Below are positions 3 to 62,688 of a stretch of DNA of 64,000 bases, in pieces. The translations under genes and the position numbers were made by a program. The DNA is from an uncultured Bacteroidales bacterium. GTDB taxonomy: Bacteria > Bacteroidota > Bacteroidia > Bacteroidales > UBA932. Location: contig ONXC01000004.1 in NCBI GenBank assembly GCA_900321715.1, forward strand, positions 37,188 to 101,187, in the 5' to 3' direction. How positions within the stretch are numbered: the stretch's first letter is position 1; each line of letters begins with the position of its first letter. Under the pieces are notes generated by a model. It did no database searches, had not been told where the DNA came from, and saw nothing but the letters and a program-made list of their open reading frames with translations.

Positions 3-1826
3 TCCGTTTCGGTAGAAGATACGGCCGATTTCACCAAGATCTTCGCCGGCACTCTTTTCAACGGTGACGGCATCATCACTCCGGCTTCGGCAGGGGAGGA
101 CGAGGCCCTTGCAAAACTCATAGAGACCATTGCAGGCATTTCCAGCGCCATAGACCGCAGCGGCGTGCCCGGCATAACCGCAGACCATATTGAGGCATTC
201 TACGCCGCCTGCGCGGATTTCAAGGCCTGGAAGGAAGCCGGCACAAAGGAAGTGTTCCCGTTCGGGGACAAGACCTCGGATGCCCTTGCCGCCGTGGAGG
301 CTCTGAAGGACAAGGTGGCCGATTACTTCATGCGCTGCAAGCTCATCGGCTTTGACGAAGCTACATCGGCAGCCCTGGACGTTAACGTTGACAAGATTGC
401 CGCAATTGAGGGCAACCTTGCCGCCGCCCAGGACCAGATTGGCGCCCAGCCCCTTGCAAAGCCTTCAAAGGACGGGAAACTGAAACTTGACGCAGTGAAC
501 CCTGCATGGAAGGCCGCCGTTGATGCCATGAAGGAACTCGTTGGCGCCCCCAAGGTGCTTGACGAGGCAGCGTGGAATGAAATCCTTGGAAAGTTCGGCC
601 CTTACTGCGCATGGATCGGCGCCAAGAAGGGCGGGGAAGTGGAAGGCCTTGGCCTTGAGTGCGTAGAGGCTATCCTCAAGGAAGACAAGAAGGCAGCCCT
701 CCTTGAACTCATTGAAAAGGACAAGGAAGAGGAAGCCAACGCCCTCTCAATTGAGGAAGTTGGGAAACTCGTGAGCCTGTATAAGAACTTCTACCGTTTC
801 CTTAATAACTACGTAGTTCTGGCCGATTTCTACGATCCCGAGAAGAAGGCCATCTTCCAGGCCGGACGTCTGTACATCGATCAGCGTTCAACTGACCTCT
901 GCGTAAAGGTTGCAGGTCCCGCCCCGGAAATTTCCTCCCTCAGCGGCATGTACATCCTCTACTGCGCCTGCACCTCTGAGAAACTTGGCAAGTCCTTCAA
1001 CATTGCCGCAGTGCTCACAGACGGTGACGTGGACGGCCTCCGTGAAGGCAAGAACGCCGTGTTCTATGACCGTGAAGGCAATGACTACACCGCAAAGGTC
1101 ATTGCAATAGTTGACAACCCCATCTCCGTGCGCCAGGCTTTCTGGAGCCCTTACAAGAAGGTTGCCCGTATGATCAACGACCGAATTGACAAGAAGGCCG
1201 CAGAGAAGAACGAGAAATCTATGGCCGGCCTCACCGCCGCAACCAATACCGCAGCTGACGGAAAGGCTCCCGCCGCTCCGTTCGACATTGCAAAATATGC
1301 AGGTATCTTTGCCGCCGTAGGTATGGCCGTAGGCCTTATCGGCGCAGCCCTGGCAGGCGTAGTGGCCGCCCTGAAGGGCATCACCTGGTGGCAGGCGCTC
1401 ATCATCATCGCCGTGGTCCTTCTCCTCATTTCCGGTCCTTCAATGTTCATCGCCTGGAGGAAACTCCGCAGGCGTGACCTTGGTCCCGTCCTCAATGCCA
1501 ACGGCTGGGCAATCAACGCCAAGGCCCTTGTGAACACCAAGTTCGGCAAGACCCTCACTTCACTGGCCAAGTTCCCTAAACTTACCGCAGTTGACGAGAA
1601 CGCCCGCAAGGCCCGTAACCGCCGCCGCTTCTGGTGCTGCTTCTGCGGCCTCATTGTTGCCGCCCTTCTGTGCCTGTGGCTGTTTAACTTCCTTGCACCC
1701 AAGTGCCCCAGCCCTCTCAAGCGCTATCAGCCCGCTCCCGTTGAGGAAGTGGCTCCCGCAGAGGATCCTGTAGAGGAGGCCGATGCCGAAGCACCTGTTG
1801 AAGCCCCGGAATCTCCAGCAGAATAA
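3..1826 (+). CDS. Unrecognised membrane-anchored protein, 5' partial
   Basis: The frame is open from base 3, so the gene starts outside the window and at least 607 residues are visible; the GTG at 165 is only an internal valine. The first ~420 visible residues are soluble, Ala/Lys/Glu-rich and largely helical. A hydrophobic stretch encoded around 1297-1440 gives two closely spaced membrane segments, and a third lies around 1630-1697 next to a basic RRRFW motif and several Cys. The tail is Pro/Glu/Ala-rich and acidic. The motif NANGWAINA follows the second membrane segment. The ATPase gene begins 5 bases after the stop, so the two are probably co-transcribed. I do not recognise the family and give no function. 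Codon use matches the neighbours, with no sign of recent transfer. Confidence 0.8.
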   Translation, partial: SVSVEDTADFTKIFAGTLFNGDGIITPASAGEDEALAKLIETIAGISSAIDRSGVPGITADHIEAFYAACADFKAWKEAGTKEVFPFGDKTSDALAAVEALKDKVADYFMRCKLIGFDEATSAALDVNVDKIAAIEGNLAAAQDQIGAQPLAKPSKDGKLKLDAVNPAWKAAVDAMKELVGAPKVLDEAAWNEILGKFGPYCAWIGAKKGGEVEGLGLECVEAILKEDKKAALLELIEKDKEEEANALSIEEVGKLVSLYKNFYRFLNNYVVLADFYDPEKKAIFQAGRLYIDQRSTDLCVKVAGPAPEISSLSGMYILYCACTSEKLGKSFNIAAVLTDGDVDGLREGKNAVFYDREGNDYTAKVIAIVDNPISVRQAFWSPYKKVARMINDRIDKKAAEKNEKSMAGLTAATNTAADGKAPAAPFDIAKYAGIFAAVGMAVGLIGAALAGVVAALKGITWWQALIIIAVVLLLISGPSMFIAWRKLRRRDLGPVLNANGWAINAKALVNTKFGKTLTSLAKFPKLTAVDENARKARNRRRFWCCFCGLIVAALLCLWLFNFLAPKCPSPLKRYQPAPVEEVAPAEDPVEEADAEAPVEAPESPAE

Positions 1827-1831
1827 CCGCT

Positions 1832-2977: not shown

Positions 2978-2997
2978 GGTTTTTTATTATTCATCTA

Positions 2998-3027: not shown

Positions 3028-3032
3028 CAGTC

Positions 3033-3429: not shown

Positions 3430-3449
3430 CTTTTTAAAGACAGAAGATT

Positions 3450-5042: not shown

Positions 5043-7654
5043 CGTCCCTCACCGGGTTGGCGCCCAAATAACTCCTTGAAGCACTTGGAAAAGTAGGAAG
5101 GAGTCCCGAAACCCACGGCATAAGCAATCTCTGAGATTGTCTTGTCCGTGGTTTTCAGCATTTCTGCGGCGGCCTTGAGGCGGGTTATGCGCACAAGTTC
5201 AACGGGGGAGTATCCCGTGAGGGCCTTCACCTTCCTGTAGAGTTGAACGCGGGAAAGGCCGATCTCCGATCCTATCTGTTCCACGCTCAGGTTTTCGTCG
5301 GAGATGTGCTCCTGGACCTTGGCGCGGAAACGGGACAGGAAATCGTTTTCCTGGGGCCTGGAGGCACTTTCTCCGGTTTCAAGATAGTGCTCCTTTAGGA
5401 GGATGCGGCTCTTCAGAAGATTGCCTATTCTGGAAAGGAGGACTTTCTCGCTGAAAGGCTTTGAAATGTAGGCATCGGCCCCTGAATCATACCCCTCCGC
5501 GCGCTGCTCCTCCAGGGATTTTGCGGTGAGAAGGATAACGGGGATATGGCTTGTTGAAAACTGCCCTTTCAGGGACTTGCAAAGTTCCAGGCCGTCCATT
5601 ACCGGCATCATAACGTCGCTCACCACAAGGTCCGGGAGTTCCCTGGTGGCCTTGTCAAGGGCCTCTTTGCCGTCAGAGGCCTTGATTATACGATATTCTC
5701 CCTGTAAAAGGGTGCCGATAAACTCCCTCAGGTCTGAGTTGTCGTCCACCACAAGGATGGTGGGGCGGTCGCTTTCAGTTACGCTGGAGGCGGCTTCCTC
5801 AAGGGAAGTGTCGGCGGCTCTGTATACATCCTGGAAGCGCTCCGTGAATTCGGCGGCGTCACGGCTTTCCAGGATCTCTGCGCCTTCGTGGCGGATTGGA
5901 ATGCGGATGAAGAAGGTGGCTCCTTCCCCAGGCACGCTCTCCACTGAAACAGAGCCTCCGTGAAGTTCCGCTATGCCTTTTACAAGGGCAAGGCCTATCC
6001 CTGTGCCGGAAGTATGCTTCCCGGCCTGGTAGAAGCGGTCAAAGATATAGGGGAGTTTCTCCCGGGGGATGCCTTCTCCGTTATCCTTTACGGTTAAGAT
6101 TGCATCGGCCCCTTCCTGCTGCACGGAAACGGCTATTTCGCCTCCCGGTGAAGTATGCTTTATGGAATTTCCCAGAAGGTTGAAGAGGATGCACTCAAGG
6201 AGTCTCATGTCAGCCTCAACTTCAAGGGACTGGGCTCCGTCATAGTGGATGAACCTGGAAGTGCCGTCAAAGCCGCTCATCCACTCCTTCACTGCGGAGG
6301 GAAGGTCAAAGCGGTAGAGCGTCAGCGGCATATTCCCGCTCTCTATCTTACGGAAGTCCAGGATGTTGTTTACAAGCCTCCGGAGGATATCCACGTTCCG
6401 GCGGGCAAGAAGCAGGGTCTCTTTCTGGTCATCCTGAAGCGGACCTTCCAGGACGTGTTCCAGGGGCCCGGCCACTAGGGACAGTGGAGTACGGAGGTCG
6501 TGGCTCACGTTGGTGAAAAAGTCCAGTTTTGCCCGGGTGTTCTCTTCCAGCTGACGGCTCAGTTCCATAAGTTCGGCGTTGAGCCTTCTGGAATTGGTAT
6601 AGCCCCAGTAGGCCTGGGCGGCTATCACGACAAGCAGGATTGCAAAGGCAATAACCATCCACATTATGATTCTCTGGTTGTTATACTGGAGTAGGAAGGT
6701 ATCCAGTTTGCCGCTCAGGTCTTCAACCATTGCACGCTGCTTTGCAACTTCCTCTTCCTGCATCTTGAGCATTCCGGCGTTGTGGCTGTCAACAAAGGCG
6801 CTCTCAAGGAGGGTTTCCCTTTCAAACGGGTCACCGCGGAGGATACGCATTGCAAGATCCATCACAAGGTCTCCGCGGGTAGGGTAGAGGTAGGAGGCTG
6901 TCAGCACTCCGTCAATTACATCCTGAAGGCCGGCGTCCGGGAGGGCGTCAACTCCAAAGAAGGAGATGTCTTCTGGGTTGCCGAGGGCATCCCTTGCGCC
7001 AAGGGCCATACGGTCGTTCTGGCCGAATACGGCATCTGGCCTTATTCCATCGGCCATAACCGCCCTCATGGCGTCAAATGCGTTTTCCTGCAGCCAGCCG
7101 CCATACGGGGATGCCAGGAGCGATATCCCTGGATAGCTGTTCAGGGCTTCCATGAAACCCCTGTGGCGATCATCGGCCGGGGATGAACCCTCAAGGCCCT
7201 GGATCTCCACCACCTTCCCTTTTCCGCCAAGGTAATCGGCAATGAACTGGCCCATAATGCGGCCCACCTCAACGTTGTCGGCCCCTATGAAGGCAGTGTA
7301 TTTGGGAGAATCGATCTTCCTGTCAAAGAGGATTACCGGAATGCCGGCGTCATATGCTTCCTCCACCGCAGGCGTAATGGTATGGGACTGGTTTGGCGAC
7401 ACAATGAGAAGGTCCACTCCGTCCTTGACGAACTTCCGGATCTGGGCCATCTGCCTCTGGCTGTCGTCATCGGCCGATGAAAATACAAGCCTCACGTCGT
7501 TAATCCCGGCCGCAAGGGATAGTTCTTCGTTCAGTTTTGTGCGCCAGATGTCGTCACTGCACTGGGATACGCCTATAACCAGCGACTTCTTCCCGCCGCC
7601 GCAAGCGGTGAGAAGAAGCACTGATAATATGATGGGGAGGAATGCTTTTTTCAT
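5039..7654 (-). CDS. Hybrid two-component sensor/AraC regulator with periplasmic sugar-binding domain
   Basis: 871 residues joining a whole signalling pathway. The N-terminus has a signal sequence ending in LLTACGGG, a lipobox-like cleavage site. Residues ~25-300 are a RbsB/LacI-type periplasmic binding fold (VIGVSQCSDDIWR; PVILFDRKI). A membrane segment lies near 331-352, then a HisKA domain with the phosphorylated His in FFTNVSHDLRTPLS (~383), an HATPase with LLGNSIKHTSPGG, a receiver with PTILVVDDNSDLRE and DVMMPVMDG (~681), and an AraC-type HTH over the last ~100 residues. The architecture and position match BT1754 of B. thetaiotaomicron, which I recall binds fructose and activates a levan locus; by analogy this protein likely senses fructose and activates susC. 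It is the last gene of the fructan operon, 5 bases after the fructokinase. Confidence 0.93.
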   Translation of the reverse strand: MKKAFLPIILSVLLLTACGGGKKSLVIGVSQCSDDIWRTKLNEELSLAAGINDVRLVFSSADDDSQRQMAQIRKFVKDGVDLLIVSPNQSHTITPAVEEAYDAGIPVILFDRKIDSPKYTAFIGADNVEVGRIMGQFIADYLGGKGKVVEIQGLEGSSPADDRHRGFMEALNSYPGISLLASPYGGWLQENAFDAMRAVMADGIRPDAVFGQNDRMALGARDALGNPEDISFFGVDALPDAGLQDVIDGVLTASYLYPTRGDLVMDLAMRILRGDPFERETLLESAFVDSHNAGMLKMQEEEVAKQRAMVEDLSGKLDTFLLQYNNQRIIMWMVIAFAILLVVIAAQAYWGYTNSRRLNAELMELSRQLEENTRAKLDFFTNVSHDLRTPLSLVAGPLEHVLEGPLQDDQKETLLLARRNVDILRRLVNNILDFRKIESGNMPLTLYRFDLPSAVKEWMSGFDGTSRFIHYDGAQSLEVEADMRLLECILFNLLGNSIKHTSPGGEIAVSVQQEGADAILTVKDNGEGIPREKLPYIFDRFYQAGKHTSGTGIGLALVKGIAELHGGSVSVESVPGEGATFFIRIPIRHEGAEILESRDAAEFTERFQDVYRAADTSLEEAASSVTESDRPTILVVDDNSDLREFIGTLLQGEYRIIKASDGKEALDKATRELPDLVVSDVMMPVMDGLELCKSLKGQFSTSHIPVILLTAKSLEEQRAEGYDSGADAYISKPFSEKVLLSRIGNLLKSRILLKEHYLETGESASRPQENDFLSRFRAKVQEHISDENLSVEQIGSEIGLSRVQLYRKVKALTGYSPVELVRITRLKAAAEMLKTTDKTISEIAYAVGFGTPSYFSKCFKELFGRQPGEGR

Positions 7655-9683: not shown

Positions 9684-11440
9684 TTGGAAAGGGGATAAAG
9701 GGTTACATCGGCCTTGGTGTTGCCGTACATCTTAATGGTGTTGTAGGGAGATGACGGGAACACGAGGTTGGTCATGGAGAAGTCTTCTCCGAATGCCTCT
9801 ATGCTGGCGCTGTCAACAAGGAGCCGCAGTTCCATCTTTCCGCCCACGCGGGTGGGGGCTGTGGTAACTGCCGCAAAGGATTTTGAGAACTTGACGTTTC
9901 CGCTGCCGCGGCGGTCCATTGAGAATGTCTGGACGGCTGCGTCATAGGAGAGGACAACCTGCTCTCCGGACTCGTTGGAAAGCACAAAGGTGGCTCCGTC
10001 TTTCTTGGAAAGGGTGAAGCGGATCACAAGTTCATATGCCTTACGGGCGTTGTCAAAGAGTTCCACGGGTGCCGTGGAGAGGCCAAACTGCACGGGATTT
10101 CCGCGAAGGGCCTCAACTTCCTTTGATGGTGTGCTCTTAAGGATGACCTCCTTGCCTTTTTTTACAAGGCTCAGGTCACGGGGAACTGAATTTGAACTGC
10201 GGAACTGCCTGGTGGGAACGGAGTTTGCGTACTGCCAGTTGCTCATCCATGCAATTGCCACGGTGCGGCCCTCCGGAGCATTGCTCCAGGTAACGGTTGC
10301 GTAGTGGTCCTTGCCGTAGTCCATCCAGCGGGTGACCGTGGGAAGGTCGTCGCACTTGAAGGCCTTTCCGTCGTAGCTGCCCACAAAGTACTGTGTGGCG
10401 CTGCCGCCGAAGGGACCGCCGGGGTTGATATTGAGGATAAGGACCCACTTTTCCTTGCCCTCGAAGGGAAGGCGGACAAGGTCAGGGCACTCCCACACGC
10501 CGTTATGGTTGCCGTATGAAAGGCCGAATGAACTGTCATATGTCCAGTCCTTGAGGTTGTCGGAGCTGTAGAGCTGGACTTCCTGGCCGGCGGCAAGGAT
10601 AACCTTCCACTGCCTGGACTCCTCATGCCAGAAGATCTTGGGGTCACGGAAATCGGGGGTGTCTGCGGCCATAATCACTGGATTCCCGGCATACTTTGTA
10701 AATGTACGTCCGTTGTCCAGGCTGTAGGCTATGCTCTGGGTCTGGTTGTCTCCGTCGGAAGTGTACATTGCAATAAGGGCGTCTTTGCCAAATCCAGCGG
10801 TATTGTCCTTGTCCACGACGGCGCTACCGCTGAAAATGGCGCCAAGGGCGTCCGGAGCAATGGCTATGCCAAGATTCTCCCAGTTTACAAGGTCCTTTGA
10901 GACAGCGTGTCCCCAGTGCATGTTGCCCCAAAAACTGCCATAAGGGTTGAACTGATAGAAAAGGTGCCATTCGCCATCCTTGTAAACCATACCGTTAGGG
11001 TCGTTCATCCAGCCCCATTCAGGGGAGAAATGATATATGGGCCGATATTTCTTTTCACTGTTGGTCAGATCCGGAACCGGTACAGTTGTCATCTCACTCC
11101 AGCAAACATCATCGGAGGGGTCGCGCCTGAGGCTGCGGCCCTGGTTCATCTTGATGTCAAGGATAATTGAACTGCCACCCCACTGTCCAAGGTCCAGGGG
11201 AACAAGGTAGTCTGTCTTGTCAATTGCAAGGCACACGTTTGCTCCAAGGACCTCATTGCCGTTGGAAAGTACCTTTACGCGCGCTTCAGGTGCATTTTCC
11301 TGCACAGGAAGCATCACATAGCGGTCTTTCCCGCTCACCTTCACCATGGTATGGGTGTCGGAGATGTGGTTGATTGTAAGGCTCTGCGCCCCGGCAAGGA
11401 CCGGGAGCAGCAGAGCCAATATTGAAAGCAATCTTTTCAT
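9680..11440 (-). CDS. GH32 fructan hydrolase, periplasmic exo-type
   Basis: 586 residues with a type I signal peptide (LLSILALLLPVLAGAQS). After an N-terminal ~110-residue beta domain comes the five-bladed GH32 propeller with all three catalytic motifs: nucleophile in GWMNDPNG (~143), stabilising Asp in FRDPK (~263), and acid/base Glu in WECPDL (~318). The last ~150 residues form the beta-sandwich typical of the family. It should release fructose from inulin/levan oligomers in the periplasm. Upstream lies only a 20-base gap, but this contains a TATCTTTG box 4 bases before the ATG, so the gene may also be transcribed from its own promoter. Coupled by ATGA to the MFS gene. Confidence 0.94.
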   Translation of the reverse strand: MKRLLSILALLLPVLAGAQSLTINHISDTHTMVKVSGKDRYVMLPVQENAPEARVKVLSNGNEVLGANVCLAIDKTDYLVPLDLGQWGGSSIILDIKMNQGRSLRRDPSDDVCWSEMTTVPVPDLTNSEKKYRPIYHFSPEWGWMNDPNGMVYKDGEWHLFYQFNPYGSFWGNMHWGHAVSKDLVNWENLGIAIAPDALGAIFSGSAVVDKDNTAGFGKDALIAMYTSDGDNQTQSIAYSLDNGRTFTKYAGNPVIMAADTPDFRDPKIFWHEESRQWKVILAAGQEVQLYSSDNLKDWTYDSSFGLSYGNHNGVWECPDLVRLPFEGKEKWVLILNINPGGPFGGSATQYFVGSYDGKAFKCDDLPTVTRWMDYGKDHYATVTWSNAPEGRTVAIAWMSNWQYANSVPTRQFRSSNSVPRDLSLVKKGKEVILKSTPSKEVEALRGNPVQFGLSTAPVELFDNARKAYELVIRFTLSKKDGATFVLSNESGEQVVLSYDAAVQTFSMDRRGSGNVKFSKSFAAVTTAPTRVGGKMELRLLVDSASIEAFGEDFSMTNLVFPSSPYNTIKMYGNTKADVTLYPLSK

Positions 11441-29465: not shown

Positions 29466-31868
29466 CTAAAAGATTGCCGCTATTACATCGGCAATAGTCT
29501 TTACATAGACAAAGGTAAGACCTTTTACGTAAATTTCCTTTATATCTTCAACATCTTTTCTGTTTTCTTCAGATATAATAATGGTATGCACGCCCGCGCG
29601 CTTGGCTGCAAGGATCTTCTCCTTGATGCCTCCAACCGGCAGCACACGGCCCCTCAGGGTCATTTCTCCGGTCATGGCGTAGCCGGTTTTGGGGGCCTTG
29701 CCGCGGAGCGCGGAAACTATTGACGATACCAGGGTTATACCTGCGGAAGGGCCGTCCTTGGGCACTGCGCCCTCCGGCACATGCACGTGGATGTCCTTTG
29801 CCATGAACTGCTCCGTGGTGATATCGGCCAGCTCAGGATGAGCCTTTATGTACTGCCAGGCAATCTGGGCGCTCTCCTTCATCACGTCTCCAAGGTTTCC
29901 GGTCATGGAGAGGTTTCCCTTTCCGGCCGATACCTGGCTTTCCACAAAGAGGATCTCTCCGCCCATTTCAGTCCATGCAAGGCCTGTTACCACGCCGGGG
30001 CCTTCGTTGCCCTTCACGTCGTCGTGGAAGGAGGTGGGGAGACCAAGGTATTCGCGGAGGTGCTCAGGCCCTACACAGGCGGGACGGTCCTCTCCCATGG
30101 CAATCTTCTTTGCGGTAACGCGGGCAATCTTTGCAATCTGCTTCTCAAGGCCGCGGACGCCGCTTTCATGGGTGTACTTGTCAATTATTTCCTTGATGGC
30201 ATCGTCTGAGATACTCAGTTCATCGGCCTTCAGTCCGTGCTCCCCAATCTGCTTGGGAACAAGGTACATCTTTGCAATCTGAAGCTTTTCCTCTGCAAGG
30301 TAACCGCTCACGTTTATCATCTCCATACGGTCCTTGAGGGCGGGCTGGATGGTGCCTATACCGTTTGCCGTGGTGATGAAAAGGACGTTTGAGAGGTCGT
30401 AGTCAATGTCCAGGTAGTTGTCGTGGAAGGCGTTGTTCTGCTCCGGGTCAAGGGCCTCCAGGAGGGCGCTTGAAGGGTCTCCCTTGAAATCCTGTGACAG
30501 TTTGTCAATCTCGTCCAGCACAATCACGGGGTTGGAGGTTCCGGCCCTCTGGATGCCGCTGAGGATACGGCCGGGAAGTGCGCCTACATAGGTTTTGCGG
30601 TGGCCGCGGATTTCTGCTTCATCGTGCATACCGCCAAGGGAAATGCGGATGTATTTGCGCCCCAGGGCCCTTGCGATGGACTTTCCAAGGGAGGTCTTTC
30701 CAACTCCGGGAGGGCCCCACAGGCACAGGATAGGGGATTTCATATTGCCCTTGAGCTTAAGCACTGCAAGGTATTCTATGATACGTTCCTTCACCTGCTC
30801 AAGGCCAAAGTGGTCCTCGTCCAGGACGTTCTGGGCGTTCTTGAGGTCAAGGTTGTCGTCACTCATCTCTCCCCAGGGGAGGTCCAGCATGAACTGGAGG
30901 AAGTTGAGCTGGATGCTGTAATCCGGGGAAGTGGGGTTGAATTTCTCAAGGCGGCTCATCTCCTTGTCAAAGATGGCGCGGACTTCCTTGGACCACTTCT
31001 TTTCATCGGCCCTCCTGCGCATTTTCTCCATTTCCTCGCCTTCGTCCATACCAAGCTCTTCCTGGATGGTGCGGAGCTGGTTGTTGAGGTAGTACTCCCT
31101 CTGCTGCTGGTCAATGTCAGTCTTGACCTTCTGGTTTATCTCCTGCTTTATCTGGATGAGCTGGATCTGGGTGTCAAGCACCTTCAGAAGCTCCAGGCCG
31201 CGGAGGTAGATGTTCTCTATGTCAAGAAGCGCCGCTCTCTCGGAGAAGTTCTCCGTCTCAATGGTGGTGGCGATGAAATTCACCAGGAAGTGGAAGTTGT
31301 CGATGCTCCTGAGGGCCCCCACGGCCTCCTTGGGCGCAAAGGATGAGGTTTTGACAATGGTGGCCGATTTCTCCTTCAGGGATTCGGCCAGCACGTGAAG
31401 TTCCCTTTCATCGGCATCCTTTGGCATGAACTCCTCAAGGCAGGTGACACGCGCGGTGATGTAGGGGTCATAGCTGACAACCTCTTCAACGCGGCACAGG
31501 GATGCGCCCTGAAGGATGGCGGTGACGGTGCCGTCCGGCATCTCAAGGGTTTTGATGAGCTTGCACACGGTGCCGCGGGGGGCAAGGTCGCTCTCCGTGG
31601 GATCCTCTACGGCAACGTCCATCTGGGGGACTGCCGCAAGCCATCCGCTGCCACCTTCCACGGCCTCCACCAGTTTGATGGACTTTTCCCTGCCAACCGT
31701 GACAGGAAAAACCGTCCCGGGGAACACTATGGCGTTCCTGAGGGGCAACAGGGGAATTGACGGCGGGATTTCCGCCGGGTTGAAATTAAGTGATCCGGCA
31801 TCTCCCACAACCGGCATTATGTTCACTTCCACGCCCGCCTGGGCGCCAATCATATCTTGCAATTTCAT
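29466..31868 (-). CDS. lon: ATP-dependent Lon protease
   Basis: 800 residues from the ATG at 31868 (MKLQDMIG); a frame extension to 31901 is not supported. The LON substrate-binding domain begins at [20 protein letters not shown], with a coiled region around 230-300. The AAA+ domain has Walker [19 protein letters not shown] and Walker [12 protein letters not shown], and the protease domain has the catalytic Ser in KDGPSAGIT and Lys in [14 protein letters not shown]. It degrades misfolded and regulatory proteins in the cytoplasm. First gene of a lon-ung-coaD-thioredoxin-RHH operon. No standard -7 box is visible upstream, but a sigma-54-like element is. Confidence 0.96.
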
Positions 31869-31923
31869 AATATCTGCCAAAATGTCATACTTTATGGACA
31901 CAATGGTCCCGGTCCCTATATGG

Positions 31924-31939
31924 TCAATCTCCGTGCCAA
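31924..31939 (-). promoter_or_regulatory. Sigma-54-like element upstream of lon
   Basis: The minus strand reads TTGGCACG-GAGA-TTGA, matching the -24/-12 consensus TTGGCACR-N4-TTGC except for the last C. It would start transcription near 31912, 44 bases before lon. No TAnnTTTG box is present on this strand between lon and hup. A single match can be chance. Confidence 0.35.
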
Positions 31940-31960
31940 GAATAAATTTTGCCCTATCAT

Positions 31961-31991
31961 TTTGATTTTAAGAATAAAATGCCTAATTTTG
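31961..31991 (+). promoter_or_regulatory. HU gene promoter (TTTG-N19-TAATTTTG)
   Basis: TTTG at 31961-31964 and TAATTTTG at 31984-31991 with a 19-base spacer. The transcript starts near 31997 and gives a leader of about 35 A/T-rich bases. Confidence 0.75.
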
Positions 31992-32032
31992 CCGAGTTAT
32001 TCGGGAAACCCTAAATTTAAAACTTAATAACT

Positions 32033-32311
32033 ATGACTAAGGCAGAGATTGTAAACGAAGTAGCAAAGGCTACAGGAATTGAAAAGGCAACGGTACTTGC
32101 AGTTGTTGAGAATTTCACAGACGCTGTGAAGGAGTCACTTATTGCAGGAAATCCCGTTTATCTTCGTGGATTCGGCAGCTTCATCATCAAGCACCGTGCT
32201 CAGAAGGCCGCGCGTAACATCACCCGCAAGACCACTATGACCATCCCCGCCCACGACATTCCTGCTTTCAAGCCCGCCAAGACGTTTGTCAACGCTGTTA
32301 AGGAGAAATAA
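32033..32311 (+). CDS. hup: HU family DNA-binding protein
   Basis: 92 residues. Typical HU: a helical dimerisation half (MTKAEIVNEVAKATGIEKATVLAVVENF), the GFGSF turn preceded by YLRG, a beta-arm, and the conserved C-terminus PAFKPAKTFVNAVKEK. It bends and compacts DNA as a dimer. The beta-arm tip reads KTTMTIPAHDIP rather than the usual T-G-E-x-I-x-I-P wording but still holds the intercalating Pro. Strong promoter upstream; the next ORF is a tiny basic protein 20 bases downstream. Confidence 0.96.
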   Translation: MTKAEIVNEVAKATGIEKATVLAVVENFTDAVKESLIAGNPVYLRGFGSFIIKHRAQKAARNITRKTTMTIPAHDIPAFKPAKTFVNAVKEK

Positions 32312-32331
32312 TCTTAAACAACTTATTAATT

Positions 32332-32421
32332 ATGCCTAACGGTAAGAAGCATAAACGGCACAAGATGGCAACGCACAAGCGCAAAAAGCGCTTGCGCAAG
32401 AACCGCCACAAGAAGAAGTAA
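32332..32421 (+). CDS. 29-residue basic ribosomal-type peptide (AURKAIP1/COX24-like)
   Basis: A short ORF with about 60 percent Lys/Arg/His: MPNGKKHKRHKMATHKRKK followed by RLRKNRHKKK. The pattern KRKKRLRKNRHK is what I associate with the AURKAIP1/COX24 C-terminal domain, counterpart of the mitochondrial small-subunit protein mS38, found as a tiny ribosomal protein in Bacteroidota. It lies between HU and RNase G and is followed by a good terminator, so it is transcribed with HU. The start ATG is in an A/T-rich context like other genes here. Confidence 0.8.
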   Translation: MPNGKKHKRHKMATHKRKKRLRKNRHKKK

Positions 32422-32436
32422 TAACTTCTCAAAGTT

Positions 32437-32472
32437 AAGGGCTTGCGGAGTGATTCGCAAAGCCCTTTTTTA
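32437..32472 (+). terminator. Terminator after HU and the small ribosomal ORF
   Basis: AAGGGCTTGCG and CGCAAAGCCCTT arms form an 11-bp stem with one bulged A, followed by a T run ending at 32472. Confidence 0.85.
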
Positions 32473-32489
32473 AAACCAAAAATTTCCAA

Positions 32490-34055
32490 ATGGAGTCTGA
32501 GAAACCGGACAAGGATTTAATTGTTGACGTAACGCCAACACAAGTACATATCGCCCTGATGGAAAATCACAGGCTGATAGAGTACTCTGCAGAGTCCAGC
32601 ACTGGGAACAAGTTCACCGTAGGAGACGTTCACCTTGGAAGGGTGAAGAAGATCCTCCCCAATCTCAATGCTGCCTTCGTGGATATCGGCGACAAAAAGG
32701 AAGCCTTCATCCATTACCTTGATCTGGGTCTTTATTTCCATGCCTTTGACCAGTTTGTACGGGAATCCAACCAGAACACAAACCTGAAGGACCTGTACTC
32801 CGGGATCAAGACAGGCGAGCCTCTTCCAAAGGAAGGGCGCATAGAGGAAATCCTCAGGCCCGGTCAGATGATTGTGGCTCAGATAGTAAAGGAGCCCATA
32901 TCCACCAAGGGATCACGACTTACCGCGGAAATTTCATTGGCAGGAAGAAACATTGTACTTCTCCCCTTCGCCTCAAAGGTGTCAATCTCCCAGAAGATTG
33001 CCGGCAAGGAAGAGAAACGTAGACTTGAGACACTGGTAAAGAGCATCCTCCCCAAGAATTACGGTGCAATCATACGCACCGCCGCAGAGGGCAAGAACGC
33101 CGCCACCCTTGTTGGTGAGACGGAGTCCCTGATAGAGAAGTGGGAGGGTTCCTGGAAAAAGATTGCATCAGACAAGACCGTCCAGCTGCTCTTCACGGAA
33201 TACAGCAAGACAACTACCGTCCTGAGGGACCTTCTCAACGAGTCATTCTCCAATATCTGGATCAACGACGAGCGGGTGGCCGAAGAAGCCCGGAAGTATG
33301 TCTCACTGATATCCCCTGAGCAGGAAAAGATAGTCCACCTCTATGAAGGCAAGCAGCCCATCTTTGACCATTTTGAGGTCACAAGGCAGATCAAGGGCTC
33401 GTTCGGAAAGGTGGTACCCATGAGACAGGGCGCTTATCTGGTAATCGAAACCACGGAAGCGCTTAACGTCATTGACGTGAACAGCGGCATCAGGACCAAA
33501 ACCGCAGATCAGGAGGAGAACTCCTTCGAGGTAAACAAGATAGCCGCAGAAGAGATAGCGCGCCAGCTCAGGCTCCGTGATATGGGAGGAATAGTGATTG
33601 TGGACTTCATAGATATGGAATCCAACGACCACAAGAATGCCCTCCACAAGTATATGCAGGAGCTTATGGAAAATGACAGGGCCAAGCACAACGTGCTTCC
33701 GCTCACAAAGTTCGGGCTTATGCAGATAACCCGGCAGCGGATAAGGCCCGTGACGGAAATCAACACCTCAGAGCAGTGCCCCGTGTGCCACGGCACCGGA
33801 AAGATCCACTCCAGCGTGGTGATTGATGAGGAAATCGAAAGAAAGATTGCCTTCTACGTCATAGAAAAAGGTGTCCGGTCCCTCACTCTCAAGACAAGCC
33901 CCATACTGGGAGCATACCTGAAGAGGGGACTGTTCAATTCCTTCCTCACCAAGTGGCGCAAGCGCTACAAAGTGAAGCTGGAACTACAGGAAGTGACAGA
34001 GTTCTCTGTCCTGCAAAATGAATTGTTCAATGAAAAGGGGGACAAGCTTGAATAG
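32490..34055 (+). CDS. rng: Ribonuclease G/E family protein
   Basis: 521 residues, RNase G-like length without the long C-terminal scaffold of RNase E. The S1 domain begins near residue 38 (GDVHLGRVKKILPNLNAAFVDIG). The catalytic core has GGIVIVDFIDMES with its metal-binding Asp residues, and the zinc-link CPVCHGTGKI (Cys-x2-Cys) near residue 430 joins protomers. It processes rRNA 5' ends and begins mRNA decay. The order HU - small ORF - RNase G is common in Bacteroidota. A bulged terminator overlaps its stop codon. Confidence 0.95.
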   Translation: MESEKPDKDLIVDVTPTQVHIALMENHRLIEYSAESSTGNKFTVGDVHLGRVKKILPNLNAAFVDIGDKKEAFIHYLDLGLYFHAFDQFVRESNQNTNLKDLYSGIKTGEPLPKEGRIEEILRPGQMIVAQIVKEPISTKGSRLTAEISLAGRNIVLLPFASKVSISQKIAGKEEKRRLETLVKSILPKNYGAIIRTAAEGKNAATLVGETESLIEKWEGSWKKIASDKTVQLLFTEYSKTTTVLRDLLNESFSNIWINDERVAEEARKYVSLISPEQEKIVHLYEGKQPIFDHFEVTRQIKGSFGKVVPMRQGAYLVIETTEALNVIDVNSGIRTKTADQEENSFEVNKIAAEEIARQLRLRDMGGIVIVDFIDMESNDHKNALHKYMQELMENDRAKHNVLPLTKFGLMQITRQRIRPVTEINTSEQCPVCHGTGKIHSSVVIDEEIERKIAFYVIEKGVRSLTLKTSPILGAYLKRGLFNSFLTKWRKRYKVKLELQEVTEFSVLQNELFNEKGDKLE

Positions 34056-34069
34056 CTTGCCCCTTTTTT
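34037..34069 (+). terminator. Terminator overlapping the rng stop
   Basis: GGGG-CAAGCT pairs with AGCTTG-CCCC with a GA bulge in the 5' arm, followed by six T. The 5' arm lies inside the last codons of rng. Confidence 0.75.
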
Positions 34070-34077
34070 CTCTTCTG

Positions 34078-34206
34078 CCCCTAATAGTTCTCCCCTTGCG
34101 GTGGAGCCCAACTGCCTGACACATAGCTATTTACAAGAGTTTCTACCAGAACTTTTTCTGGTAGAAACTCTTGTAATATATTGAATATCAATGTTTTGAT
34201 CTCCAC
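34078..34206. repeat. Left copy of a 129-bp inverted repeat flanking alr and the zinc protease
   Basis: This segment is about 90 percent identical to the reverse complement of 36086-36214. Outside the hairpin loop all differences I see are transitions. It runs from just after the rng terminator to 3 bases before the alr stop codon. Inside it is a 21-bp perfect stem (34131-34151 with 34156-34176, loop CTTT). A conserved CTCCCCTTGCGGTGGAG block lies on the outer side. Confidence 0.9.
34131..34176. terminator. 21-bp hairpin with TTAC...GTAA ends, left copy
   Basis: A perfect 21-bp stem with a CTTT loop. It lies 34 bases downstream of the alr stop (minus strand) and downstream of rng (plus strand), so it can stop transcription from both sides. 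Confidence 0.75.
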
Positions 34207-34209
34207 CCG

Positions 34210-35316
34210 TTACCGAATCACCAGACGGTGAATACGGCGGGGAACGGAGACAAGAATCTCATAGGGAATGGTTCCAAGGATACCCGCCAGTTCCTCAACG
34301 TGAGGGTCTTCCCCAAACACGGTGACGGTGTCTCCTGGGGCGGCGGGGATGCCGGTTACATCCAGCATACACATATCCATACAGATATTGCCGATTGTAG
34401 GCGCCCTGTGACCGTTCACTGAGAACGATGCTGCACCGCGGCCAAGATGGCGGTCTATTCCATCGGCATAACCCACCGGAATGGTGGCGATGACGGTGCC
34501 TTCCTTGGCGTGGCCCCACCTGCCATATCCAACCGTATCCTCCGGTCCTAACTGCTTTATCTGCAGAATCTTGCACTTGAGGGACGCCACGGGGGCCAGG
34601 CGCTTTCCGGGGAGGGCGCTGATTCCATATATGCCGATCCCAAGGCGCACCATATCAAACTGATACTGAGGGAAACGCTCTATTCCGGCGCTGTTGAGGA
34701 TGTGACGCATGGGCATGTAGCCTATTCCGTCCGCGATGGCCTTGGTGTTTTTCTGGAAAAGTTCTATCTGGCCAAGGGTGAAGCCGTCCTGCTCAGGATC
34801 TTCGGCTACGCAGAGGTGTGAGAACAGGCCCTTGACCTTTACTTCCGGGGTTACTTTGAGGTATTCTATAAGTTCCGGAAGTTCATCGGACATAAAGCCC
34901 AGGCGGTGCATTCCGGTGTCCAGTTTTATATGGACGGGGTAATCCTTCAGGCCCTTATCACGAAGAACCGCAACCAGCTTTTTCAGTGAATAGAGGTTGG
35001 GGATGGATGGCTCCATCCGGGTTTCTATGATCTCCGGGAAGAAATCCGTACCGGCGGTGAGAACCAAGATTGGGAGGGAAATACCGTTGCGGCGGAGTTC
35101 CAGGCCCTCAACGGGGTATGCCACGGCAAGGTAATCGGCCCCTGCACGCTGCATCATTGCGGCAAACTCCACGGCTCCGTGACCATACGCGTTGGCCTTG
35201 ACCAGAACAAGGAGTTTGGTCTCAGGCTTAAGGAGGGAGCGGAAATAACGGTAGTTGCCCACCGTGGCATTCAGATTAAGCTCCAAACGGGAAAAATCAT
35301 CCTCAATTACGCGCAT
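34210..35316 (-). CDS. alr: Alanine racemase
   Basis: 368 residues from the ATG at 35316 (MRVIEDDFSRLELNL). The frame runs open to 35604 but the extra part overlaps the divergent protease and reads as its antisense. Alr makes D-alanine for peptidoglycan. The PLP lysine is in VLVKANAYGHGAVEFA, the catalytic Tyr region reads VGYGRWG, and NICMDMCMLDV is the conserved second-subunit loop. It is a free-standing alr, not the murF fusion found in some relatives. Promoter box CAAAAATA (minus TATTTTTG) at 35335-35342. Its stop lies 3 bases from the inverted repeat. Confidence 0.95.
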   Translation of the reverse strand: MRVIEDDFSRLELNLNATVGNYRYFRSLLKPETKLLVLVKANAYGHGAVEFAAMMQRAGADYLAVAYPVEGLELRRNGISLPILVLTAGTDFFPEIIETRMEPSIPNLYSLKKLVAVLRDKGLKDYPVHIKLDTGMHRLGFMSDELPELIEYLKVTPEVKVKGLFSHLCVAEDPEQDGFTLGQIELFQKNTKAIADGIGYMPMRHILNSAGIERFPQYQFDMVRLGIGIYGISALPGKRLAPVASLKCKILQIKQLGPEDTVGYGRWGHAKEGTVIATIPVGYADGIDRHLGRGAASFSVNGHRAPTIGNICMDMCMLDVTGIPAAPGDTVTVFGEDPHVEELAGILGTIPYEILVSVPRRIHRLVIR

Positions 35317-35334
35317 ATTGTCCGTTTTGCAGTG

Positions 35335-35342
35335 CAAAAATA
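35335..35342 (-). promoter_or_regulatory. alr -7 box (TATTTTTG)
   Basis: On the minus strand TATTTTTG lies 18 bases before the alr ATG. It faces away from the protease box at 35375-35382. No clear -33 TTG. Confidence 0.45.
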
Positions 35343-35374
35343 ACATTTCCGCGTGACATTTCGGCATAAAAATG

Positions 35375-35382
35375 TAAATTTG
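35375..35382 (+). promoter_or_regulatory. Zinc protease -7 box (TAAATTTG)
   Basis: TAAATTTG lies 25 bases before the protease ATG at 35408, giving a short leader. Together with the alr box it makes a divergent promoter pair in 91 bases. Confidence 0.5.
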
Positions 35383-35407
35383 TGCCAACGGATAAAAACA
35401 GAACGCT

Positions 35408-36085
35408 ATGTCTACAATGCTTATCTGGATAATAATGATTGCGGTGATGGTGGCAAGTATGATCATACAGGCCATGCTCAAGCGCCGCTTTGACAAATAC
35501 TCCGAGGTCCCGCTCTCCATGACCGGAGCGGAGGTTGCCTCCCGTATGCTGGCTGCCCACGGCATACGTGACGTCTCAATAGTGTCTGTGGACGGAAAAC
35601 TCACGGACCACTATGACCCCACCACCCGCACTGTAAACCTCAGCCAGGATGTCTATTACGGCAGGTCAGTCGCCGCTGCAGCAGTGGCAGCCCACGAGTG
35701 CGGCCACGTGGTGCAGCACGCCACGGGTTACGCCTGGCTCAGGATGCGTTCGGCCCTGGTCCCGGTGGTGTCTTTTTCCAATAGTATTGTGTCCTGGGTG
35801 CTTCTTGGAGGGGTTCTCCTTATCAATATCTTCCCGCAGCTGCTGTGGTTTGGGATCGGCCTTTTTGCCCTTACAACCCTTTTCAGTTTTATCACCCTCC
35901 CAGTAGAGATCAATGCCAGCGCACGTGCCGTGAAATGGCTGGAGGGTGCCGGAATTGTAACTTATGAGACCAAGCCCATGGCGGCCGATGCCCTCAAATG
36001 GGCAGCTTACACCTACGTGATTGCAGCGCTGGGCTCTCTGGCTACGCTGCTCTACTACATTTCCGTGGCGAACAGAAGGAATTGA
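35408..36085 (+). CDS. Membrane zinc metallopeptidase (YugP type)
   Basis: 225 residues. An N-terminal membrane segment (LIWIIMIAVMVASMIIQAML), a cytosolic or membrane-edge domain with the zinc motif HECGH in AAVAAHECGHVVQHATGY (~100), then membrane segments around 115-165 and 200-220. PVEINASARAVKWLE supplies the likely third ligand region. It belongs to the Zn_peptidase_2 family, a gluzincin of unclear substrate, probably membrane protein quality control. It diverges from alr and its stop lies at the edge of the right inverted repeat. Confidence 0.88.
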   Translation: MSTMLIWIIMIAVMVASMIIQAMLKRRFDKYSEVPLSMTGAEVASRMLAAHGIRDVSIVSVDGKLTDHYDPTTRTVNLSQDVYYGRSVAAAAVAAHECGHVVQHATGYAWLRMRSALVPVVSFSNSIVSWVLLGGVLLINIFPQLLWFGIGLFALTTLFSFITLPVEINASARAVKWLEGAGIVTYETKPMAADALKWAAYTYVIAALGSLATLLYYISVANRRN

Positions 36086-36214
36086 GTGGAGGTTAAAACG
36101 CTGACACTCAATGTATTACAAGAGTTTCTACCAGAACTTTTTCTGGTAGAAACTCTTGTAAATAGCTATGTATCAGGCAGTTAGGCTCCACCGCAAGGGG
36201 AGAACTATTAGGGG
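36086..36214. repeat. Right copy of the 129-bp inverted repeat
   Basis: It begins immediately after the protease stop codon and ends 3 bases before the DJ-1 stop codon. It is the reverse complement of 34078-34206 with about 13 mismatches. The hairpin loop (CTTT, 36137-36140) has the same plus-strand orientation as the left copy, so relative to the flanking sequence the loop is inverted. Confidence 0.9.
36116..36161. terminator. 21-bp hairpin with TTAC...GTAA ends, right copy
   Basis: Same perfect stem as 34131-34176. It stands between the convergent protease (plus) and DJ-1 (minus) genes and probably terminates both. Confidence 0.8.
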
Positions 36215-36217
36215 TGA

Positions 36218-36787: not shown

Positions 36788-37221
36788 ATTCTTTTACTCT
36801 TAAAAAACTCTACCATAAGATTGGAGCATTCCTCCTGCAGTACGCTGCCTCGGATGACTGTTTTGGGATGTAGCAGGGAAGGCTGGAACATTGAAAAGCC
36901 GCGGCGGGGGTCCGGGGCGCCGTACACCACGGTTCCGGTCTGGGCCCAGGCAAGGGCGCCCGCACACATGGGGCAGGGCTCTACGGTAACGTATAGCGCG
37001 CAGTCCGTTAGGTACTTACCTCCAAGGGCTTCCGTTGCGGCGGTGATTGCAATCATCTCTGCGTGGGCGGTGGTGTCACGGAGCCTTTCAGTCTGGTTAT
37101 GACCACGGCCGATGATCCTGCCCTTCCACACCACCACGGCCCCGATGGGGATTTCTCCCTCCTCAAGGGCGGCATGCGCTTCCCGCAGCGCCTCTTTCAT
37201 GAATTTTTCATCTTGCTCCAT
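36784..37221 (-). CDS. tadA: tRNA adenosine deaminase-type nucleoside deaminase
   Basis: 145 residues of the cytidine/deoxycytidylate deaminase fold. Zinc motif 1 is HAEM in TTAHAEMIAITAA with the catalytic Glu, and motif 2 is PCPMCAGAL. The spacing and the C-terminal FFKSKRI fit TadA, which converts A34 to inosine in tRNA-Arg(ACG). Other nucleoside deaminases such as guanine deaminase are an alternative. The ATG is only 4 bases from a TAACTTTG box, so the mRNA is probably leaderless. Divergent from engB. Confidence 0.9.
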   Translation of the reverse strand: MEQDEKFMKEALREAHAALEEGEIPIGAVVVWKGRIIGRGHNQTERLRDTTAHAEMIAITAATEALGGKYLTDCALYVTVEPCPMCAGALAWAQTGTVVYGAPDPRRGFSMFQPSLLHPKTVIRGSVLQEECSNLMVEFFKSKRI

Positions 37222-54870: not shown

Positions 54871-55820
54871 TAACTACAGGATTCTTTGACGGTGTCCATC
54901 TTGGGCACCGTCGTGTGCTTGAGACAGTGGTCTCCTCTGCCCGTGAAAGGGGAGAGGAGGCCGTTGTGGTTACGTTCTGGCCTCATCCAAGGACGGTCCT
55001 GCAGCAGGACGCCCGGGACTTCAGGCTGCTCACGTCCCTGGAGGAGAAAAAGGCTCTCCTTGCCGCCGCCGGCATTGACCGCACGGAGGTCCTGCCTTTC
55101 ACCCGTGAGTTCGCCTCCCTTAAGGCCGATGAATACCTCTCCCTCCTCCAGTCCCGTTACGGCGCTTCGCTGATAGTGATGGGTTATGACAACAGGATTG
55201 GGAGTGACAGGAAGACGGCGGAAGAGATATGTGTATGTCAAACCGTCGGCTGCGCCGACCCCTCCCAAAGCAAGCTTTGGGCCCCTCCCTCTTATCCGGC
55301 CGAGGGTGGCCAGAGGCCTGGGAACCACATATCTCCCTTGCCTGTGGTAGCAATAGACCCCGTCATTCCCGGCCTGACCGGGAATCCCATTTCTTCCACC
55401 AGGATCCGGAAGGCGCTGAAGGAGGGGGATGTGGAAGCGGCAAACGGGATGCTGGGGTATGAGTACGGGCTGCATGGAGTGGTTGTGGCTGGGAACAGGA
55501 TGGGCCGCACCATAGGGTTCCCTACGGCCAATATGCAGCTGTATGAGCCGCTGAAACTGGTGCCGCAGAACGGCGTTTATGCCGTGAACGTGGAGGTGAC
55601 CGGGAATGTGTTCCGGGGCATGTGCAACATTGGCACAAGACCCACGGTTGGAGGGACGGCCAGGACCATTGAGACTCACATCCTGGACTTCTCCGAAGAC
55701 ATCTACGGCCTGCCGCTGAGGCTCCGCTTCCTGCGCCGCATTCGCGATGAACGCAAGTTCCCCTCGCTGGACGCCCTTCGGCAGCAGCTGGAACTGGATG
55801 CTTTGAATTGTAAAAAGTAA
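54852..55820 (+). CDS. ribF: Bifunctional riboflavin kinase/FAD synthetase with an in-frame repeat insertion
   Basis: 322 residues from GTG 54852 (GTG 54861 is an alternative). FAD synthetase half: TTGFFDGVHLGHRRVL at the start with the HxGH-like motif, and ISSTRIRKAL (~180). Riboflavin kinase half: GRTIGFPTANMQ, NIGTRPTVGGTARTIETHILDF. Between YDNRIGSDRK and VVAIDP the protein carries ~37 extra residues rich in Pro, Cys and Gln (VCQTVGCADPSQSK...) encoded by a 112-bp palindromic element, and VIPGLTGNP just before ISSTR is encoded by a second palindrome. The frame survives, so the protein is probably made; whether FAD synthesis is intact is unclear. Confidence 0.92.
   Translation: MRKVAVVTTGFFDGVHLGHRRVLETVVSSARERGEEAVVVTFWPHPRTVLQQDARDFRLLTSLEEKKALLAAAGIDRTEVLPFTREFASLKADEYLSLLQSRYGASLIVMGYDNRIGSDRKTAEEICVCQTVGCADPSQSKLWAPPSYPAEGGQRPGNHISPLPVVAIDPVIPGLTGNPISSTRIRKALKEGDVEAANGMLGYEYGLHGVVVAGNRMGRTIGFPTANMQLYEPLKLVPQNGVYAVNVEVTGNVFRGMCNIGTRPTVGGTARTIETHILDFSEDIYGLPLRLRFLRRIRDERKFPSLDALRQQLELDALNCKK
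55224..55335. mobile_element. 112-bp palindromic element with terminal inverted repeats inside ribF
   Basis: Ends are GAGATATGTG (55224-55233) and its complement CACATATCTC (55326-55335). Inside are hairpins GTCGGC-TGC-GCCGAC (55245-55259), CCCAAAGC-AA-GCTTTGGG (55264-55281) and CCCTC...GAGGG (55287-55306). It is MITE-like and read in frame through ribF. Confidence 0.75.
55365..55385. repeat. Palindrome ATTCCCGG-CCTGA-CCGGGAAT inside ribF
   Basis: A perfect 8-bp inverted repeat with a 5-base loop, translated as VIPGLTGNP. It resembles a palindrome class (GTCATTCCCGGC...ACCGGGAATC) that I have seen dispersed in many bacterial genomes. Confidence 0.65.
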
Positions 55821-62200: not shown

Positions 62201-62688
62201 TGAAGGAGATTGCCGCAGCGTTCGGTACGCTGGACCAGCCTGAAATATCGGCCATCCAGAAGGCAGAGACCGCAGGGGAGGCTTATACGCTTGCGCTTCC
62301 TGGCGGAGACGTTGTCCTGAATCCCGGAGATTACGCCATTTCATCGGAGGATGTAGAGGGCTGGCAGGTTGCATCCGAGGGCTCCCTTACCGTTGCACTG
62401 GATATCGAGGTTACGCCTGAGCTCAGGCTGGAAGGCCTTTCCCGTGAACTTGTGAACCGTATCCAGAACCTTAGGAAGGCTTCCGGCTTTGAGGTCACGG
62501 ACCGCATCCACACCGTAGTTTATTCAGACGATCCTTCACTTGCAGAGGCCCTGCAGGTGTACTCAGATTATATTAAATCACAGACACTGTCCGTTTCCAT
62601 CGGCCTTGAAAAAGCTGCTTCCGCTCCCGCAGATGCAGCAGAGGTTGAATGGACCGAGGGCACAATTAAGCTAACCGTAAAAAGATAA
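59263..62688 (+). CDS. ileS: Isoleucine--tRNA ligase
   Basis: 1141 residues, class I, of the length usual in Bacteroidota. The HIGH-type motif lies in NGMPGIHHVMARSIKDAICR and is followed by GWDTHGLPVELGVEKKLGI. The editing domain (~200-400) carries TTPWTLPSNTALCVG, and GTGIVHIAPTFGADD marks the deacylation pocket. The second signature is NGNKMSKRLGN (KMSKS type). The C-terminal half is helical for tRNA binding, and the final ~200 residues form the long tail seen in the eukaryote-like IleRS2 branch. First of the ileS - DksA-like - lspA operon. Confidence 0.97.
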   Translation: MTFKEYKGLDLTQTGKEVLERWKRMNAFGKSLELREGAPEFIFFEGPPSANGMPGIHHVMARSIKDAICRYKTQTGYRVARRAGWDTHGLPVELGVEKKLGITKADIGTKVSVDDYNATCRKEVMKYTAEWENMTERVGYWVDMKDPYITYDNRYIETLWYLLKKIYEKGLLYKGYTIQPYSPTDGTGLSSHELNQPGCYKDVSDTTATVQFEIIKDGASQPLYGTETVPAYFLAWTTTPWTLPSNTALCVGPEIEYIRVLSFNPYTGAPAVYVLAKDLLGAWFNPKGAEIPMESYQKGDKIVPYKVLDGCFKGKDLVGIRYHQLIPWFKPNGEAFRVIPGDYVTTSDGTGIVHIAPTFGADDKRVAAAAGIGAIMPIDKDGNPQAQVDRQGRFMRLEDMDPAFAATVDASYKEYSGRYVKAGYKQYFEHVDEEGTLDIDLCVMMKADGRAFKVQKHVHSYPHSWRTDLPVLYYPLDSWFIKASAVKDEMVALNKQITWKPASTGTGRFGQWLENIQDWNLSRSRYWGTPLPIWRTEDGKEEICIGSVKELYNEIEKAVAAGVMSSNPLKDKGFDPEDMSLENYNKIDLHRPYVDYIYLVSASGKKMTRETDLIDVWFDSGAMPYAQEGLRNLGKPGFGATADFIAEGVDQTRGWFYTLHAIHTMISGTPAFKRVISNGLVLDKNGNKMSKRLGNAVDPFQALDNYGADALRWYMLTNAEPWDNLKFDEGGVSDVRRKFFGTLYNTYAFFARYANIDGWAPETEGETLSVNELDRWILSKLNTVIRDVREAYEDYDVKSAGRILEAFVCDDVSNWYVRLNRQRYWAGEMTPDKKAAYETLYKVLVDVAVLAAPIAPFFMDQLYCDLVPGAESVHFTLMPEASEKAVDKDLEERMALAQQATSLILGIRKKVNIPVRQPLQKVMIPVISDKVRRQLDQVKGIILTEVNVKEMEFIEDASGIMTLRIKPNFKVLGKTYGARMKEIAAAFGTLDQPEISAIQKAETAGEAYTLALPGGDVVLNPGDYAISSEDVEGWQVASEGSLTVALDIEVTPELRLEGLSRELVNRIQNLRKASGFEVTDRIHTVVYSDDPSLAEALQVYSDYIKSQTLSVSIGLEKAASAPADAAEVEWTEGTIKLTVKR

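Follow-up and report, generated by a model that had tools for sequence, protein, structure and literature searches.

GGCCGAT, an iterated word in the genomes of one clade of Cryptobacteroides-like gut Bacteroidales, may serve as a self-DNA recognition tag

The 64,000-nucleotide stretch analyzed here (positions 37,188–101,187 of contig ONXC01000004.1, assembly GCA_900321715.1, from an uncultured Bacteroidales bacterium; hereafter the window) carries the 7-mer GGCCGAT at a density far above expectation. The word is enriched beyond codon usage, lies equally on both strands with random spacing, occurs in coding as well as intergenic DNA, and reaches high density in only one clade of Cryptobacteroides-like Bacteroidales, whose members, when pooled, show an excess of both retention and gain of the word. 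We tentatively interpret GGCCGAT as a self-DNA recognition tag that a sequence-specific reader may maintain and that may work like a DNA uptake sequence (DUS), a reading to which we assign a probability of about 40%.

Within the window, GGCCGAT occurred 115 times (59 copies on the plus and 56 on the minus strand), from positions 23–29 (plus strand) to 62599–62605 (minus strand), whereas 100 dinucleotide shuffles yielded a mean of 10.6 copies (standard deviation 3.3, maximum 19). The original prediction, made from the letters of the window, had tallied ~114 copies (58 + 56) between positions 23 and ~62605 as strongly over-represented, and our count agrees in number and extent; its GC content of 56–57% was too high, as we measured 54.1%. 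Neighboring words, which it had called far rarer, were indeed rarer, with 24 copies of GGCCGAA, 15 of GGCCGAC, and 7 of GGCCGAG. Across the whole genome (2,044,722 bases), 1662 plus-strand and 1617 minus-strand copies summed to 3279, or 1.60 per kb, and the same letters in reversed order occurred 226 times. This genome is an incomplete metagenome-assembled genome (MAG; 80.6%), as are the genomes compared with it. It ranked highest among 393 genomes sampled from the order, a sample including only two other members of the genus, and the runner-up (G410) reached ~0.41 per kb (910 copies in 2.2 Mb).

Codon-preserving nulls were applied to the window together with 18 further stretches of its own genome (411,445 bases, 301 called genes; hereafter the 411-kb sample). 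Genes of this sample contained 643 copies, compared with 89.8 ± 9.1 when synonymous codons were shuffled within genes and 85.4 ± 8.5 when codons were swapped only between places with equal neighboring bases. GGCCGAT ranked first among all 7-mers under both shuffles (z = 60 and 65), so GC-rich 7-mers are not all equally enriched, and the six words ranked after it overlap either GGCCGAT or its variant TGCCGAT. The genes of the window alone held 111 copies against 15.1 ± 3.3, with a maximum of 25 over 200 codon-preserving shuffles. Between genes, 115 strict intergenic pieces (17 kb) contained 22 copies where 1.69 were expected. The genic copies were distributed over several codon frames (G-GCC-GAT, 273; A-TCG-GCC, 203; ATC-GGC-C, 124; GGC-CGA-T, 32; the remaining two frames, 11) and over both orientations relative to the gene (310 same, 333 opposite), in line with the earlier claim that one favored codon pair would be insufficient. 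An origin of the excess in codon usage, codon-pair preference, or amino-acid composition would accord with the genic location of most copies, three quarters of which (476 of 643) lie in Ala-Asp or Ser-Ala frames. Nonetheless, shuffles with and without codon-junction context produced only 85–90 copies, and together with the intergenic count they refute codon usage as the main cause; we consider this explanation practically excluded.

Strand use was even across 19 stretches of the window's genome, for which origin and terminus positions are unmapped (heterogeneity χ2 = 8.07, P = 0.99). Chi sites and FtsK orienting polar sequences (KOPS) are likewise short over-represented words, but they are strand-polarized; GGCCGAT, as the original prediction had noted from its balanced strands, lacks such polarity, making a Chi, KOPS, or other strand-polarized signal hardly credible. 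Spacing was random (coefficient of variation 1.03, mean ~540 bp in the 411-kb sample), and 15 overlapping opposite-strand pairs such as ATCGGCCGAT were present in the same sample, one of them in the window at positions 7469–7478 (minus strand 7469–7475, plus strand 7472–7478). The position of copies inside genes was indistinguishable from uniform (Kolmogorov–Smirnov P = 0.20), and gene-level dispersion was near Poisson (index 1.10). Even strands and random spacing, along with the codon-shuffle excess, thus uphold the description of GGCCGAT as an iterated genomic signal rather than a codon pair. Codon-atypical genes, examined as candidates for foreign origin, did not show a lower density, and one 20-kb region with SusC/SusD-type genes (L001) held 15 copies (0.75 per kb).

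Variants and flanks of the word were graded. Two of its 21 one-letter variants were clearly above expectation, TGCCGAT (197 vs 65.5 expected, 3.0-fold) and GGCCGAA (136 vs 77.4, 1.8-fold), and none of the others exceeded 1.2-fold; the depletion of near misses was left unused, as near-miss expectations are inflated when motif sites are shuffled synonymously. Compared with phase-matched near-miss words, the letter following GGCCGAT was seldom C (39 vs 88), and A was preferred at +7, +8, and +9 (264 vs 205, 213 vs 170, and 236 vs 171). The extended word therefore comprises GGCCGAT, with T tolerated at the first and A at the last place, then A, G, or T, and an A-favoring, G-poor tail. An extended form, GGCCGATA, occurred 265 times against 12–14 expected by Markov models. 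Such gradation suggests a protein site more than an exact enzyme site.

Proteins matching the IleS encoded in the window came from Bacteroidales MAGs of gut and rumen origin; four of these MAGs are titled Candidatus Cryptobacteroides. In an IleS tree built by a quick method, the window's genome grouped with L019, L056, L020, L021, and L022 in one clade (Shimodaira–Hasegawa-like approximate likelihood ratio 100), and whole-genome densities in this clade were 1.60, 1.08, 0.88, 1.35, 1.34, and 1.10 per kb, respectively. The seven nearest genomes outside it (L023–L027, L061, and L062) had 0.34–0.53 per kb, and the other 34 of the 46 genomes of the search had 0.08–0.37, all densities of IleS relatives being computed from rounded genome sizes. 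Within 36 further genomes of the genus, partly overlapping the former set, the word reached 1.52 per kb in G019, 1.24 in G028, 0.78 in G005, and 0.49 in G003, and 0.07–0.41 in the other 32. These four genomes are absent from the IleS tree; G019, G028, and G005 were counted with the clade because of their word density and their similarity to genes of the window, giving nine high-motif genomes (the window's own, G000; G061–G064; G098; G019; G028; and G005). In a comparison of 23 species by a codon- and context-preserving shuffle, from which five short G003 stretches (GC 0.158, presumably masked letters) were excluded, GGCCGAT attained z scores of 37 in the window's genome, 26 in G019, and 14 in G028. 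It was also the top 7-mer in the smaller samples of G062 (46 vs 14, z = 8) and G005 (46 vs 17, z = 7), and it was not among the top four 7-mers in a 40-kb sample of G064.

We next aligned codons homologous to the window's genes for 16 other genomes. Among 113 sites, taken from the window's genome together with eight high-motif genomes, 59 were present in a single species, indicating that GGCCGAT sites turn over. Over ordered pairs of six high-motif species (the window's own, G019, G062, G061, G063, and G028), the word was retained in 376 of 831 cases against the 141.2 that the same codon changes at other places would predict (2.7-fold), compared with 0.8–1.6-fold for seven control words; from these six species to three outgroups, retention was 52 of 535 vs 65.1. 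A cruder control, using other 7-mers of equal GC and phase, gave excesses between the window's genome and G061 (23/38 vs 13.3), G062 (15/34 vs 6.3), and G019 (21/40 vs 8.5). Gains were likewise in excess: outgroup near misses with the other six letters matching were completed to GGCCGAT in 132 of 594 cases vs 63.3 expected, whereas five control words gave 0.55–1.34-fold and outgroup–outgroup pairs 0.61-fold. Since species pairs share branches of one tree, gain and retention counts are non-independent, and their ratios are descriptive.

A second word was found in sister species. In G070 and G074 (L028, L032, L192–L201), KGAATAT stood out (z = 12 each). Codon shuffles yielded 142 vs 43 and 163 vs 44 copies of KGAATAT in this pair, and its core GAATAT was in excess both in genes (193 vs 79 in G070, 227 vs 82 in G074) and between them (25 vs 7.0 and 28 vs 5.1), so that enrichment over codon shuffle ranged from 2.4-fold for the core to 3.7-fold for the full word. 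Whole-genome counts of KGAATATG were 1140 in 2.6 Mb (0.44 per kb) and 1146 in 3.1 Mb (0.37 per kb), whereas the remaining 49 of the 51 genomes counted had 72–906; those coming nearest to the pair were G081 (0.31 per kb) and G080 (0.29 per kb), where codon shuffling of KGAATAT gave just 67 vs 47 and 94 vs 67. Ranking the 64 words of the form KGNNNAT put CCG at the top in each of the six sampled GGCCGAT genomes; AAT headed the list in both members of the KGAATAT pair and, weakly, in G081. KGAATAT may be a dialect of the same system as GGCCGAT. By a bolder extension, which we regard as doubtful, these gut Bacteroidales would possess a system for uptake or self-recognition that is peculiar to them, outside the known pilus/ComP scheme, whose words would switch between subclades (KGCCGATD and KGAATAT) through homologous readers with altered middle-triplet specificity.

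In the 14 species with neither word, the top 7-mer had z scores of 5–8, save for GTCGATG in G103 (z = 10). GTCGATG was enriched 2.3-fold in G103 and 1.9-fold in G067 (L061, L025, L202–L211) by codon shuffle; it was put aside as a further dialect on account of its codon-periodic flanks, although its intergenic excess (10 vs 2.1 in G103, 6 vs 1.9 in G067) speaks against a purely codon cause, and it is possibly a weak third word. CGATATC (L055, L059) was dropped as an iterated word: it was high by Markov models, but in G097 codon shuffling gave 34 copies vs 14 expected. In more distant Bacteroidales, ATGTCGAC (L073/L067) and AAGGTCTT (L085/L082) were over-represented in a Markov test only.

Could the word accumulate without any function? 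A particular error or patch-repair step might convert near misses into GGCCGAT. The observed and expected gains at letters 1–7 were 3/9.6, 31/16.0, 5/1.8, 6/9.8, 1/0.8, 23/7.2, and 63/18.1, with letters 1 and 4 below expectation and an excess that is clear mainly at letters 6 and 7, in favor of such a step; the commonest one-letter difference was an outgroup C for T at the last letter (29 of 83). However, the outgroup letters replaced were C, G, and T for A at letter 6 and C, A, and G for T at letter 7, so that one mutational step is insufficient; smaller excesses also appeared at letters 2 and 3, and the word, once made, was retained well above expectation. We therefore judge a mutational or repair bias very unlikely. 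Methylation offers another route, in which a methyltransferase of the clade would modify the last-but-one A of GGCCGAT, and methyl-directed repair or restriction pressure would accumulate the word. MmeI-like and BREX (bacteriophage exclusion) motifs carry a modified A at this place, and the window's genome holds one MmeI-type methyltransferase (PF20473; L119, G000:C20 ~115919, E = 1.6 × 10−84). Among the high-motif genomes, this family was strong only there and weak in G019, G063, and G005, and it was equally strong in the low-motif G065 and G103. PF00145 was found in G061 only, PF01555 in G028, G005, and weakly G064, and PF02086 in G028, G005, and an 84-aa frame of G098. PF07669 matched at least once at E ≤ 1 × 10−3 in all nine high-motif genomes; the matches were strong only in G019, G063, and G005, and the remainder comprised weak 300–336-aa frames (E = 3 × 10−5 to 6 × 10−4) in G000, G061, G062, G028, and G098, the MmeI gene of G000, and a 496-aa frame of G064 (E = 1.7 × 10−5), with similar weak frames in the low-motif G067, G071, G075, and G103. 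No strong match in these five Pfam families, searched in 23–24 incomplete genomes without type I and other families, was common to the nine high-motif genomes, and a methyltransferase as the cause was accordingly set aside as quite unlikely; the suggestion that the word is a methylation target is weakened in its plain form by these searches.

The remaining alternative is an architectural word resembling the HIP (highly iterated palindrome) words of cyanobacteria, namely sites of a nucleoid-, repair-, or recombination-associated protein selected on the chromosome itself rather than via uptake. Copies in both coding and intergenic DNA, gene positions compatible with uniformity, near-Poisson dispersion, and the pooled retention excess all suit this explanation. 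HIP1 (GCGATCGC) is also over-represented and differs sharply between related lineages, high in one and low in its near relatives, and exceptional genomes carry alternate HIP words, according to PMC4390886. In the same paper, HIP words are palindromes tied to methyltransferases, which lends some support to a methylation origin. GGCCGAT is not a palindrome, and on this point the HIP1 analogy of the original prediction fails; nor is a strong match in the five methyltransferase families searched common to the high-motif genomes. A different word in the sister subclade would further require the specificity of the protein to change, an argument that the author of PMC4390886 likewise raises against a binding protein. 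A chromosome-organizing or repair word nevertheless ranks close behind the uptake-like reading, as a possible explanation short of even odds.

Under the preferred reading, GGCCGAT would be a genome-wide, strand-symmetric DNA tag, and a sequence-specific reader favoring DNA that bears it would maintain the level of ~1.6 copies per kb. As a self-DNA recognition signal acting in the manner of Neisseriaceae and Pasteurellaceae uptake sequences, it would cause fragments carrying the word to be preferentially taken up or recombined; copies made by chance would then spread through the population, and lost copies would be restored. That a protein reads the word, and that uptake and recombination supply the drive, is what we infer. 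As with DUS of Neisseriaceae and uptake signal sequences (USS) of Pasteurellaceae, the word is short and non-palindromic, its thousands of copies are divided over both strands, it occurs across a clade, and tolerance at its ends is graded. Relatives with a different word recall the DUS dialects; for the dialects it names, PMC3630211 gives 2245–4549 copies per genome. The differences are that GGCCGAT belongs to another phylum and is known here from sequence, that ComEC is a short frame, and that the Neisseriaceae dialects share a CTG core (PMC3630211) whereas the words here share only GG---AT, to an extent compatible with chance. We accordingly propose that GGCCGAT works like a DUS and make no claim that it is a member of that class. 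The uptake analogy drawn in the original prediction fits the anatomy best; no uptake function is demonstrated.

Several observations weigh against this reading. The results do not separate an uptake drive from selection for a chromosome-organizing or repair function, and we know of no natural transformation in this genus. With the cruder retention control there was no excess between the window's genome and G064 (4/34 vs 6.1), G019 and G064 (6/40 vs 9.6), or G019 and G063 (14/42 vs 13.0), so that G064 combines high density with no excess of site sharing. Individual letters of control words also gained about twofold (23 vs 10.8 in GGCCGAC). GGCCGAT and GGAATAT share 4 of 7 letters, which chance would produce in 30% of cases over both strands and five offsets and in 7% in the same register, making the dialects a lead rather than a result. 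A reader was not found in a search in which ComEC was the sole competence gene sought and the outer-membrane receptor was left aside. ComEC-like matches (PF03772), which the uptake reading can count in its favor, occurred in all but one of 23 genomes; since these 22 include both high- and low-motif ones, the presence of ComEC was rejected as a difference between them. The open frame measured 356–500 aa in 18 of these genomes; that of the window's genome (L276:5268–6356) has 362 aa, and only the Competence domain was found in it. Its neighbors there are acetate kinase, phosphotransacetylase, ApbE, and FtsK genes. A few kb from comEC in G005 are genes for a DpnII-type restriction enzyme and for D12 and N6/N4 methyltransferases (L277, G005:C44, 7359–10939), and the 12-kb surroundings of comEC inspected in the window's genome contained none of the kind; no shared reader appeared in these two neighborhoods, and the surroundings of comEC were discarded as a specificity island. 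In Riemerella, another member of the Bacteroidota, competence involves ComEC, DprA, ComF, RecA, and additional proteins whose function is unknown, as described in PMC8459023; the terms "uptake sequence" and "DUS" are absent from that paper's text.

Along the window, the longest stretch free of GGCCGAT spans positions 31369–35133 (~3.8 kb) and holds an RNase E/G gene (32490–34055) and part of an alanine racemase gene (34210–35604). This gap had been anticipated at 31.4–35.1 kb, but a second one placed at 9.7–12.4 kb is interrupted by a plus-strand copy at 11040–11046. An intergenic repeat of ~130 bp, at 34078–34206 and 36086–36217, flanks the stretch that includes the alanine racemase gene; the repeat has a 21-bp hairpin stem (fold z = −6.0), its two inverted copies are ~90% alike, and further copies occur elsewhere in the genome (L002, L006, and L007) and, in large number, in the relative G061. 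It resembles a miniature inverted-repeat transposable element (MITE) or a repetitive extragenic palindrome (REP). A GC-rich repeat at 55236–55330, without an Rfam match, recurs as 38–76-bp pieces, 83–100% alike, at two other loci of this genome (L008 and L016) and at loci of several other genomes of the group. An Rfam scan of the window returned two tRNAs and nothing else.

A literature search found no publication on GGCCGAT as a whole word, and among the matches listed, none was on point for uptake sequences or over-represented words in Bacteroidetes, Bacteroidales, or Cryptobacteroides, or described word dialects of this kind for this phylum. To our knowledge, genome-wide words of such strength are known from few groups, and the reason for their existence is an old open question. 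An uncultured gut lineage whose close relatives have GGCCGAT, little of it, or another word provides a natural series, one that serves both the search for a reader by gene content and the separation of drive from selection. If GGCCGAT is an uptake signal, routine DNA exchange within species would be implied for these Bacteroidales; otherwise, the word would point to a DNA-binding function that is new and has thousands of sites.

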